Shown in pieces: positions 21,040 through 25,130 of a stretch of 26,050 nucleotides of DNA. Location: the IMG/VR virus record IMGVR_UViG_3300006641_000155, positions 1 through 26,050 of that record, one strand, 5' to 3'. The translations under genes and the position numbers were made by a program. Source of the DNA: a virus. The notes beneath the pieces were generated by a model. It worked only from the letters and a program-made list of their open reading frames with translations. It did not search any database and was not told the origin of the DNA. Position 1 is the stretch's first letter; every line of letters starts with the position of its first letter.

Positions 21040-21762
21040 ATGGCACTACCTAAGATTGATGTACCGACATATGATTTGTTTTTACCAACAAGAGAAGAGG
21101 CCCTCAAGGTTCGTCCGTTCAATGTGAGAGAAGAAAAACTATTGTTGATGGCCTTAGAGTCTAAGGACCAGAACGAAATAACAAACACCGTTAAGCAAGT
21201 TGTGAATAACTGTATTGTAAGCGGTAAGTTTGATGTTAATAAGTCGCCGTTCTTTGAGGTAGACTTTATCTTTATCTTCCTCAGAGCAAAGAGCATAGGT
21301 GAAAAGGTTGCAGTTAAACTAACCTGTAATAACGTTGTTGAAGATAACAAATGTGGCAATATTTTTGCTGCCGAACTAGATGTTAGTAACTGTGAACTTG
21401 TGAATGATAATCCTGTTCCTGACCTTATTGACTTAGGTGGTGGCAAAGGTGTCAAGATGAAATATCCAGGCTATGGTGCAATGAAGAAGATTGATGGTGG
21501 CCTTGATATCGACAGAACTGTTAACATTGTGGTCAATAGTATTGATTACATATATGACAATGAAGAGGTCTATTCAGCAAAAGATTATGGTAAAGAAGAG
21601 TTAAATGAGTTTGTTATGGGCCTGACAGAAGAAAACTTTAGAAAGTTGGAGGAGTTTATCGATAACTTTCCAACATTCGCTGTTAGAGTCGAAGCAACCT
21701 GTAATAAATGTGGATTTGAACATAAAGTGAGGTACACTAATTTCGCTGATTTTTTTCTCTGA
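21040..21762 (+). CDS. gp26: gp26-like baseplate hub / tail assembly chaperone
   Basis: This 240-residue protein fits the T4_baseplate family that contains T4 gp26 (208 aa). The N-terminus MALPKIDVPTYDLFLPTREE, the VRPFNVREEKLLLMA motif (about 24-38) and FVMGLTEENFRKLEEFIDNF near 191-210 are typical. Four cysteines (C96, C105, C221, C224, the last two as CNKCG) could bind zinc. gp26 is needed for hub assembly and is not a major virion protein. The ribosome binding site GGAG lies 8 bases before the ATG. The gene ends in a run of seven T's followed by a hairpin, and a -1 shift there would fuse it to the next gene, as in the two-part chaperones that precede tape measure genes in other tailed phages. 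Confidence 0.82.
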   Translation: MALPKIDVPTYDLFLPTREEALKVRPFNVREEKLLLMALESKDQNEITNTVKQVVNNCIVSGKFDVNKSPFFEVDFIFIFLRAKSIGEKVAVKLTCNNVVEDNKCGNIFAAELDVSNCELVNDNPVPDLIDLGGGKGVKMKYPGYGAMKKIDGGLDIDRTVNIVVNSIDYIYDNEEVYSAKDYGKEELNEFVMGLTEENFRKLEEFIDNFPTFAVRVEATCNKCGFEHKVRYTNFADFFL

Positions 21763-21983
21763 TAATGTCCTATGAAGGTCTAGTAGGGCATTTTAAAAAT
21801 AACTTTTCGCTAATGCATCATCATAAGTGGCCGCTATCAGATGTAGAAAACATGATACCATGGGAAAGACAAATCTATATTGAAATGCTTGCTCAGTTCT
21901 TGAAAGAACAAGAGCAGAAGATGAAAGACCTAGAGAATGAACAAAAGGCGCAACTTCAAGCAATGCTAAGAAAAAAGATGTAG
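21040..21983 (+). CDS. Predicted gp26-gp51 frameshift fusion (314 aa)
   Basis: If ribosomes shift -1 on the T run at 21750-21756, translation continues from F239 of gp26 into S-L-I-M and then through all of the gp51 frame to the TAG at 21981, giving 314 residues. The shifted frame is open without interruption across the junction. The product would be the analogue of lambda gpG-T. This is a prediction from sequence geometry and has not been observed as a protein here. Confidence 0.5.
21750..21756 (+). promoter_or_regulatory. -1 ribosomal slippery heptamer T_TTT_TTT
   Basis: The zero frame reads GAT TTT TTT CTC TGA, so the last seven T's form the X_XXY_YYZ pattern in which both tRNAs can re-pair after a -1 slip. 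The zero-frame stop follows one codon later. A stem-loop begins 7 bases downstream. No ribosome binding site for the separate gp51 ATG exists in this T-rich stretch. Confidence 0.65.
21764..21792 (+). promoter_or_regulatory. Stem-loop after slippery site, covering the gp51 start codon
   Basis: AATGTCCTA (21764-21772) pairs with TAGGGCATT (21784-21792) to form nine pairs, one of them G-U, around an 11-base loop. The spacer from the slippery heptamer is 7 bases, within the range used by known -1 stimulators. The gp51 ATG (21765-21767) lies inside the stem, which would hinder independent initiation. Confidence 0.55.
21765..21983 (+). CDS. gp51: gp51-like small hub assembly protein (72 aa)
   Basis: This 72-residue protein follows gp26 as gene 51 does in T4, but it is much shorter than T4 gp51 (249 aa). 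It is helical. The N-terminal half contains HHHKWPLSDVENMIPWERQI, and the C-terminal half is a Glu/Lys/Gln-rich probable coiled coil (LKEQEQKMKDLENEQKAQLQ). The W-P-x-x-D-(V/I) followed by P-W-E motif looks like the T-part of tail assembly chaperones. The ATG lacks a ribosome binding site and is buried in a hairpin, so the protein is probably made mainly as the C-terminal part of a gp26 fusion. It ends at TAG, followed by CAA and a second in-frame TAG before the next ATG. The gp51 name rests on position. Confidence 0.7.
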   Translation: MSYEGLVGHFKNNFSLMHHHKWPLSDVENMIPWERQIYIEMLAQFLKEQEQKMKDLENEQKAQLQAMLRKKM

Positions 21984-21989
21984 CAATAG

Positions 21990-24900
21990 ATGGCAAAAAA
22001 ATCAAACTTCAACAAACTCGCACAAATGAGAGAATCGGAAAGAGCAAGAGCCTTACAAGGCAATCCTGGTCTTCTTTCTGGTTTAACACCTACACAAATT
22101 GCAGAACTCTTTCCTGATTACTTTAAACGTGGCACACCTGACGTTGGTGGATTCTATGCTGCTATCTCTAAGGAGTCGGCAAAGAAACAACAAACTTGGC
22201 AAGGTAGTGTTGATTCACGTTTAGATCAGCAAGGTGGTATGCTGTCAAGAATGCGTAAAGAATATGCCGGTGAAGGTGGCGAAGGAAAAATCCGAAACAT
22301 GGTCAAAGCACAAGAGGTTTATAACTATCTTCGTGCTAAGGGTGTAGATCATATTCATGCTGTTGGTATGTTAAATAACATAGAACATGAATCCGGATTT
22401 AATGCAGCAAGTAAGCATTATGACGTTAATGGACCTTCGGCAGGTTTATTTCAACACCATGATGTTGATGGCAAAGGAGGTAGATTTTCACAACTTAAAG
22501 CATTCACCAATGGTGACTGGAGTGACTGGAGAAAACAAGTCGATTTTGCTTTACAAGAAGGTGTTACAAAAAGATATCTAGCACAAAAATTTAACAGTGC
22601 AGAAGATGCTTCTGTATATTTTACACATAATTTTGAAAATCCTGCTAATAAAGAACAAGTTGCTGCTGACAGATTGAAAACTATTAAGACATTTGATAAA
22701 TTTACTCAAACTGGTGAAACCACACCACAAGGTGCACAAGGCGACCAAAGAAAAGGACAAACACCTCAGCAACAAGCAGGAGCACCTACTACACCAGGTG
22801 CACCAGCAGGTGATACAACATCGCAAGCAGGTAAAGTTGTAGAAGGTACCAAGTTTAATGTTGTATCTGGTTACATCGTGCCTCAAGATAAATCTCTATA
22901 TGATCCACGAAATGCTTCACAGTGCGCCACACTAGGTAAAGCATTTAATCCTGCTGTTGGTAGATCATCAGGATGGTCTATTGTTGATGGTGATATCAAA
23001 GCAGGACAAGTTGTAGCAACAAAACAATATAACAATCCTGGTGCTGATAGAGTTGGCGCAGGATATCACACAGGTGTTGCACTAACAGCACCAAACGAAA
23101 AGGGTGACTTTCTACTACTAGAACAATACAATGGATCTGGTGGTGCTAAAACAAGATGGGTAAACAAGAATAGTTATCCTATCGGCCACACAGGTCAAAC
23201 AACATCGTGGGGATTAATCTCTTCTGGTGGTAAAGTTCATGATGAAATATCACAAGAGGCACTAGCGTATGGTGAGAAACTAGGTGGTCCTAATAAAGCG
23301 GCCGTTGGCACCAATTCAGGAACACCGGGTCAAGGTGGAGAAACTGCACCAGGTGTTGAAGGACAGGTTGAGTATGCGGGTGAGACTGGTCAAATAGGAG
23401 GAACTACTGTTGGTGAAGGAGAACAACAATCTGCATCATTAATGCAGCCTGTAGCAATGATGCAAAATCTAATGGGTATGATGGGCGGCATGGGCGGAGC
23501 AACCGCAATACCTCTAGGTCTAATCACAACAGCAATGGGATTTATTATGCCATTGATTGGTTCTATAGCAGGCGAAAGACTAACTGGTGAAGGTATGGGT
23601 GGTCCTGGTGCTTCAAAATTGCCTCATATCAATGTCAATCGTGCTACAATGGGACATAGAGGGCATCGTGGTCATAGAGGCAGCAGATCATCCACACAAA
23701 CTACACAGACTACGGCTAAAACAACTACACAATCGGTACCTGCACAACCTGTAGATAATACACCTATAAGTCATAGAGCAGATATAGGTCATATGTCTGT
23801 CAAATATGAATCAGGTGGTAGGGGTGTTGAATCTATCTCTAGTGGAAGAAAAGACCCAGGCGGCGTATCATATGGCGAACATCAACTTGCTTCAAAAACA
23901 GGAACAATGGGAAAATATTTAAGATCAGCAGAATCAAAAGGATATTCTGAAAAGTTTGCTGGACTTAAACCAGGGTCAGCAGAGTTCAATAAAGTTTATA
24001 GACAGATAGCAAAGGAAGATCCAAAAGGATTCGCTAAGTCTCAACAAGACTACATTACGAGAACACATTATGAACCGGTATATCGTCACGCTAAAGCATT
24101 AGGATATAATGTGAATGATCCACGTGTGCAAGAGGCACTGTATAGTATATCGGTGCAGCACGGTGGTGCTAAAAAAGTTGTCAGTATGGCAAAATCTTCT
24201 GTTGATGCTGATCCTCAAAAGCAAGTTGAATCCTTGTTTGGTGCCCGCCGTCAATATGTGGCATCTAAAGGTATGAACTTTGATACAAGATACAAGTCAG
24301 AGAAGCGTGAAATTTTGGCTATGGATGTTACGAAGTATAAGCAAGACGAAATGCCAACACAATTTGCCGGCGCTCGACCAGAAACAACAACAGCGCAAGT
24401 AGGACCTGGTGCCACTACTCCTGCCGCAGCACCTATGATGCCTACACAAATGGCATCACAGCAAAAAGAAGAGAAGGGACTATTTCAACAAGCAAAAGAA
24501 TTTGCTGGAATAGGTTCCACACAACCGGTAGCACAACCATCGGTGGGTACTACAGGCACACCCACAACACCGGCAGCACAACCATCGGTTACTACACCAA
24601 CTTATGTTGCTCCTGGCACGCCTAGTGTTTCGACTAGTATATCAAATGCAGCAGCACCTGCTGCTCCGATTTCTAAGGCAGCAAGAACGCCTTTTGGAAT
24701 TTATGCTAATCCATCAAAGACTGATATTATGAATCAATTCGGATATAGAAAAGAATTGAGTGCAACGCCAGTAACAAGCACATCTAATGTGCCTGCCGCA
24801 CCTGCAACACCACCTACTGTGCTTGCACCAACAAAAGGTGCAATGATGCAAGCACCAGGGCCAGCGCCAGATACAACAGCAATGCAAATGAGAACACAAA

Positions 24901-25130
24901 TGCAGACTGTTGCTATGGCACAAGCAGGTGAAGCACAAAGACCAATGCCTCAAATGCAACAAGTGTCACAGGTTTCTCATGTATTAAATCATGACCAGAC
25001 GATGAAGATGATACAGAATCCTGCCGACAATCCATCGGTATATCGTGCATTTGCTAGAACAGCAACAGGAGAAGAATTACCAGGCGCACTAGGACACGGT
25101 CATTTCAGTAATGGTAATTCAGTAGCATAA
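21990..25130 (+). CDS. Multidomain tail peptidoglycan hydrolase in tape-measure position (1046 aa)
   Basis: Three enzyme-like regions are joined by Pro/Thr/Gln/Ala-rich linkers. Residues about 103-235 resemble the phage tail lysozyme family (GMLNNIEHESGFNAAS with E134 as likely acid, then GPSAGLFQHH). Residues about 280-410 resemble a BPSL0067/NlpC-like amidase, with C312 in SQCATLGK, H360 in AGYHTGVAL and a LLEQYN strand. Residues about 595-780 resemble the muramidase of VgrG3-type effectors (KYESGGRGV with E607, then DPGGVSYGEHQLASKTGT). A hydrophobic, Gly/Met-rich segment at about 485-528 could cross a membrane, followed by an HRGHRGHRG run. The C-terminal 250 residues are low complexity. 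It follows gp26/gp51, where a tape measure is expected, and no other gp29 candidate is in the window. Hydrolase function is fairly sure; a tape-measure role is speculative. The ribosome binding site is weak, and translation is likely coupled to gp51. Confidence 0.78.
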   Translation: MAKKSNFNKLAQMRESERARALQGNPGLLSGLTPTQIAELFPDYFKRGTPDVGGFYAAISKESAKKQQTWQGSVDSRLDQQGGMLSRMRKEYAGEGGEGKIRNMVKAQEVYNYLRAKGVDHIHAVGMLNNIEHESGFNAASKHYDVNGPSAGLFQHHDVDGKGGRFSQLKAFTNGDWSDWRKQVDFALQEGVTKRYLAQKFNSAEDASVYFTHNFENPANKEQVAADRLKTIKTFDKFTQTGETTPQGAQGDQRKGQTPQQQAGAPTTPGAPAGDTTSQAGKVVEGTKFNVVSGYIVPQDKSLYDPRNASQCATLGKAFNPAVGRSSGWSIVDGDIKAGQVVATKQYNNPGADRVGAGYHTGVALTAPNEKGDFLLLEQYNGSGGAKTRWVNKNSYPIGHTGQTTSWGLISSGGKVHDEISQEALAYGEKLGGPNKAAVGTNSGTPGQGGETAPGVEGQVEYAGETGQIGGTTVGEGEQQSASLMQPVAMMQNLMGMMGGMGGATAIPLGLITTAMGFIMPLIGSIAGERLTGEGMGGPGASKLPHINVNRATMGHRGHRGHRGSRSSTQTTQTTAKTTTQSVPAQPVDNTPISHRADIGHMSVKYESGGRGVESISSGRKDPGGVSYGEHQLASKTGTMGKYLRSAESKGYSEKFAGLKPGSAEFNKVYRQIAKEDPKGFAKSQQDYITRTHYEPVYRHAKALGYNVNDPRVQEALYSISVQHGGAKKVVSMAKSSVDADPQKQVESLFGARRQYVASKGMNFDTRYKSEKREILAMDVTKYKQDEMPTQFAGARPETTTAQVGPGATTPAAAPMMPTQMASQQKEEKGLFQQAKEFAGIGSTQPVAQPSVGTTGTPTTPAAQPSVTTPTYVAPGTPSVSTSISNAAAPAAPISKAARTPFGIYANPSKTDIMNQFGYRKELSATPVTSTSNVPAAPATPPTVLAPTKGAMMQAPGPAPDTTAMQMRTQMQTVAMAQAGEAQRPMPQMQQVSQVSHVLNHDQTMKMIQNPADNPSVYRAFARTATGEELPGALGHGHFSNGNSVA

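Follow-up and report, generated by a model that had tools for sequence, protein, structure and literature searches.

The main finding of this work is a predicted -1 frameshift signal at the end of gene 26 of a T4-like virus, where translating ribosomes very probably move back by one base on the T's that closely precede the stop codon. The window, that is, the whole 26,050-nt stretch of DNA analyzed here (positions 1 to 26,050 of IMG/VR record IMGVR_UViG_3300006641_000155), represents a portion of the tail and baseplate module of this virus. With high confidence, we regard gp26 as the short form and a gp26-gp51 fusion as the long form of a tail assembly chaperone, the long form arising by a -1 slip on U_UUU_UUU, at a rate probably raised by a Shine-Dalgarno-like (SD-like) element and a hairpin. 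That one gene yields both gp26 and a gp26-gp51 fusion had been proposed in a first-pass annotation of the same sequence, and the comparison with related phages strongly supports the proposal: the in-phase heptamer is near-invariant, the -1 frame is invariant, a nearby start for gp51 is mostly lacking, and T4 gp51 is colinear with the fusion.

The slippery heptamer and the gp26 and gp51 frames

The gp26 gene (21040-21762, + strand) encodes a protein of 240 aa that matches PF12322 (T4_baseplate, E 1.8e-52) and phrog_150 (E 2e-56), and its last codons are GCT GAT TTT TTT CTC TGA, the zero-frame stop TGA lying at 21760-21762 (+ strand). As first described, seven T's stand in slippery phase one sense codon ahead of this stop, T_TTT_TTT occupying positions 21750-21756 (+ strand) in the gp26 frame. 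The -1 frame opens 10 nt ahead of the gp26 stop and is bounded by a -1-frame TGA at 21747-21749 (+ strand) that directly adjoins the heptamer, as it also does in 10 of 84 clusters of related junctions; therefore, any -1 shift must fall within 21750-21762. Once entered, from position 21756, the gp51 frame runs to 21983, in agreement with the earlier observation that it is open throughout gp51, and the fusion predicted from the shift comprises 314 aa, with post-shift residues F-F-S-L-I-M-S-Y-E-G and a predicted junction peptide ..NFADFFSLIMSYEGLVGHFK.

The gp51 ORF itself (21765-21983, + strand) encodes 72 aa from its ATG and would form the C-terminal extension of the fusion. It matches phrog_634 (E 2.7e-23) over the C-terminal half of that profile, and the fusion profile aligns on to T4 gp51. 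Its ATG (21765-21767), in the -1 frame relative to gp26, lies 2 nt past the gp26 stop (TGATAATG), a point against the proposed shift, since reinitiation could also give free gp51. No purine-rich ribosome binding site was found by inspection of the 5-13 nt before this ATG, which bears out the earlier statement that gp51 lacks one.

In the mechanism that we propose, most ribosomes would terminate at TGA 21760 and release the short form. With tRNA-Phe in both the P and A sites on U_UUU_UUU (21750-21756), a fraction would slip back one base and read on in the gp51 frame to 21983, giving the 314-aa protein. The slip rate would probably be raised by pairing of the upstream GUGAGGU with 16S rRNA and, in the window's lineage, by the 10-bp hairpin that a 7-nt spacer separates from the heptamer. 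As in lambda G/GT, many copies of the short form may coat the tape measure protein and a few of the long form may recruit tail tube subunits. The heptamer, its phase, the open -1 frame, the conservation of the junction and the homology to T4 gp51 are seen directly in the sequences; the occurrence of the shift, its rate, the roles of the stimulators and the chaperone action are what we infer from them.

Directly after gp51, in a position typical of tape measure genes, the window holds a gene (21990-25130) whose 1046-aa product carries Phage_lysozyme2 and VgrG3-like domains at its C-terminus. We do not call this gene a tape measure gene because its product showed no similarity to the corresponding downstream proteins of HTVC008M and P-SSM2.

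Conservation of the junction and alternative readings

A total of 301 gp26-gp51 junctions was assembled from IMG/VR loci (several scans) and annotated phage records. An in-phase T_TTT_TTN lies zero to three codons ahead of the gp26 stop in 284 of them, with 234 distinct heptamer-bearing sequences; exactly one codon before the stop, 226 of the 284 heptamers read TTTTTTC and 46 read TTTTTTT. To reduce relatedness, 84 cluster representatives with less than 70% amino acid identity were picked. The heptamer stands at 84/84 cluster junctions, a figure that holds by construction because representatives were chosen among heptamer-bearing junctions (the unselected figure being 284/301), vs T_TTT_TTY at 7/105 Phe-Phe pairs found elsewhere in these genes (Fisher 6e-46). 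Likewise, compared with these 84/84 junctions, T_TTT_TTN occurs in phase at 21 of 19,252 other gp26 codon positions. From codon usage alone, the probability of T's at all 84 junctions is about 1e-30, assuming independent clusters, which they only partly are; since the sequences are related, such p-values overstate independence. In the 149 distinct junctions compared first, the complete ones have a -1 frame that stays open for 149-236 nt past the gp26 stop, and the +1 frame is never open for more than 70 nt. The frameshift arrangement was also found in cyanophages, pelagiphage HTVC008M, Methylophilales phages, Sinorhizobium phiM7, Otagovirus and KVP40-like phages, and the candidate signal is, at the sequence level, a conserved feature of T4-like phages other than the T4 group itself. 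In a number of public cyanophage records, gp51 is unannotated or hypothetical despite the -1 ORF present there.

The junctions without a heptamer belong to Ackermannviridae, to Vibrio phages K382 and SD25, and to contig L328, whose reading frame is apparently disrupted; all the intact ones fall in the Ackermannviridae-like group. These Ackermannviridae-type relatives keep the -1 frame without the canonical heptamer, which counts against the proposed mechanism. In the Ackermannviridae loci (L072, L073, L160-L177) and in L070 and L075, gp51 remains in the -1 frame behind a degenerate heptamer (for example, GAR ATT TTC ATT TAA); a gp51 ATG is missing from the junction of Kuttervirus, and the junction of Limestonevirus contains TAATG.

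Among alternatives to a -1 slip, the one that survives best, though very improbable, is termination at TGA 21760 followed by reinitiation at ATG 21765, which would yield a separate 72-aa gp51 and no fusion. The TGATAATG geometry in the window, the TAATG found in many relatives and the habit of annotators of calling gp51 a separate gene are all consistent with it. However, 49/83 clusters lack an ATG among the ten -1-frame codons that follow the slip point, and a separately started gp51 would therefore lose its conserved beginning. Reinitiation also leaves the heptamer unexplained (84/84 selected junctions vs 7/105 pairs elsewhere), and it fits poorly with the lack of a ribosome binding site before gp51 and with T4 gp51, which is one long polypeptide. 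To transcriptional slippage on the T run, by which mRNAs with one added base would have the two frames fused, we assign about half that weight. A homopolymer of T's is what such slippage would use, and the same product would be expected, but in most relatives the run stops at six T's and a C comes next (TTTTTTC in 226/284 at the usual position), and six T's are short for transcriptional slippage. Moreover, the phase of the run relative to the codon frame is invariant, although RNA polymerase does not read it, and the SD-like element upstream is a signal for the ribosome. The least probable reading of all, that the T run merely encodes a conserved terminal Phe-Phe and that gp51 is a separate or decayed gene, agrees with the retention of FF even in T4 gp26 (GLKEFFELL), but T_TTT_TTY is infrequent at the other Phe-Phe pairs of these genes (7/105), GAG TTC TTT is found in T4, where no shift is needed, and the gp51 domain is conserved throughout.

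Candidate stimulatory elements

Two elements may assist the proposed -1 slip. The first, GTGAGGT (21727-21733, + strand), lies about 16 nt upstream of the heptamer and is predicted to form a duplex of -7.0 kcal/mol with the anti-SD CACCUCCU. This SD-like element was absent from the first-pass annotation and is more widespread than the hairpin. SD-like sequence upstream of the heptamer exceeds a synonymous-codon null (mean z -1.30 +/- 0.17), and the excess peaks where the 8-mer and the heptamer are 7-13 nt apart. Lineages that carry a Glu-Gly (EG) motif have GGAGG-like sequences 7-13 nt upstream of the heptamer, and their Glu is encoded by GAG in 34/54 cases, compared with about 22% for these genes as a whole (Fisher 5e-11). 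The window's lineage is without the EG motif; GTG AGG is kept there, and AGG is used in 8 of the 9 clusters with Arg at the position. The SD-like element, a putative upstream stimulator, is selected beyond codon usage, a conclusion that concerns its presence and selection and not its effect. Close relatives (L013-L019 and kin) have lost GTG AGG (ATA AAG TAT or similar) and kept the heptamer; therefore, the element is not obligatory.

The second element, a possible 3' stimulator, is a predicted hairpin at 21764-21792 (+ strand) with a 10-bp stem (arms 21764-21773 and 21783-21792) and a 9-nt loop. A 7-base spacer and a 9-bp stem had been reported; the spacer (21757-21763) is as described, but the stem has 10 bp, and the gp51 ATG does lie within it, in the 5' arm. 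The 74-nt region does not stand out from dinucleotide shuffles (z -1.46); when the 40 nt around the stem are compared with synonymous-codon randomisations, z is -2.36 (P about 0.015). Averaged over clusters, structure relative to the synonymous null reaches z -0.84 +/- 0.17 at offset 6 and about zero past offset 30, unevenly among clusters. Oceanic cyanophages have an analogous stem of 11-12 bp with a 4-5 nt spacer, a 9-nt loop and very strong structure (z about -5). The hairpin of the window is weak to moderate, and the nearest relatives do not retain it in this form. An alignment of related gp26-gp51 junctions had been suggested as a check on the T run, frame and stem: the T run (284/301) and the -1 frame are kept, but the stem is not, an uninterrupted stem of at least 6 bp being absent in 104/234 distinct junctions. 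A universally conserved hairpin was rejected on this count, and we treat the hairpin as a probable lineage-specific aid and not as a defining part of the signal.

The -1 cassette of the dnaX type consists of an internal SD, a slippery heptamer and a stem. The same three-part layout is seen here, with an SD-like sequence about 7-16 nt upstream, the heptamer, and a stem in some lineages; dnaX differs in its unrelated function, and the U-rich heptamer and optional stem characterize the proposed cassette of the T4-like chaperones.

T4, the proposed chaperone function and known systems

T4 genes 26 and 51 are located on opposite strands and divergently oriented. PF12322 is present in both products, and in T4 gp51 the entire domain is joined to the gp51 extension. 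When a profile built from the predicted fusions was aligned with T4 gp51, the match ran unbroken across the shift point, and T4 gp26 ends there; therefore, T4 and its close relatives encode the short and long forms as two genes. At the corresponding place T4 gene 26 reads GAG TTC TTT and has no slippery site, which fits the view that such a site serves frameshifting alone. The statement that this T4-like phage uses a -1 shift thus holds, by comparison, for the virus of the window, whereas T4 itself is without the shift. T4-type gp51 was matched over at least 80% of its length in 1,334 phage records.

Another layout was observed in Listeria phage LIS04 (Thornevirus; L077, 2480-3439), where a PF12322 protein, placed between the tail tube and annotated tape measure genes, precedes a gp51-like ORF that lies in the +1 frame; this ORF may be reached by a +1 or -2 shift or may have its own start. 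We tentatively suggest, at somewhat less than even chances, that the chaperone pair is made in at least three ways in T4-like and related phages: by a dnaX-like cassette (internal SD, U_UUU_UUN and an optional, lineage-variable stem), by two genes (T4 and relatives), and, in Ackermannviridae, by some other -1 fusion or coupling, at GAR AUU UUC AUU UAA, where a canonical heptamer is lacking and, in Kuttervirus, a gp51 ATG as well. If true, one phage gene family has repeatedly changed how a fixed product ratio is set.

That the gp26/gp51 pair acts as a tail chaperone rests on the literature and on the listing of T4 gp26 and gp51 as hub assembly chaperones (PMC3004832). The earlier suggestion of a two-part tail chaperone agrees with work attributed to Vladimirov et al. 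(2022) in papers that cite it. An AlphaFold model (pLDDT 87) searched with Foldseek against the PDB gave the HK97 chaperone 2ob9 (prob 0.28, E 2.1) and YqbN 3klu (E 5.9), both sub-threshold, and a PDB sequence search found no relative. In the annotation of LIMEstone1, gp26 is a confirmed structural protein, which fits poorly with a lambda-like chaperone that leaves the tail; lambda G/GT is absent from virions (PMC5009743).

Previous studies place these observations among systems of a known kind. G-T frameshifting has been described as conserved in long-tailed phages except T4 (review PMC5009743). The tail chaperones of T4-like phages were identified by Vladimirov, Gautam and Davidson (Virology 2022, 566:9-15), as cited in PMC10885494 and PMC12846349. 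According to the PRFect authors citing that work (PMC10885494), some T4-like phages instead have a short gene together with a long one. The phage Adele paper, citing the same source (PMC12846349), mentions poly-T -1 slippery sequences in TAC-N genes of T4-like phages. Going by these citing papers, -1 poly-T signals in T4-like chaperone genes have been in the literature since 2022. Our finding, though correct and with strong support, therefore belongs to a known kind; what may be new is the SD-like element, the stem of the cyanophages and the exception seen in Ackermannviridae. For cyanophage and marine vibriophage, gp51 was reported without the first ~200 residues of T4-type gp51 (Sullivan et al., 2010, PMC3037559), and it would be short because the missing part is gp26, supplied by frameshift. 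Many cyanophage and marine phage records carry gp51 as a separate gene or leave it unannotated.

Judging from the papers that cite Vladimirov et al. (2022) and from homology, the gp26/gp51 chaperones reported there belong to the same protein family and likewise comprise a short and a long form; in some T4-like phages the long form comes from a second gene, whereas in the virus of the window it would come from frameshifting. This offers a natural comparison of frameshifting with gene duplication for setting a chaperone ratio. Lambda G/GT (Levin 1993; Xu 2004, 2013; PMC5009743) likewise yields a short protein and a -1 extended form from one gene of the tail module, but its heptamer differs from U_UUU_UUU, and the likeness seen here is one of gene layout. 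In the TAC genes of Vandenendeviridae and Andersonviridae (PMC12846349), a poly-T site likewise stands at the end of the short chaperone gene and the -1 frame is conserved, although these are other virus families and the motif is GTTTTT.
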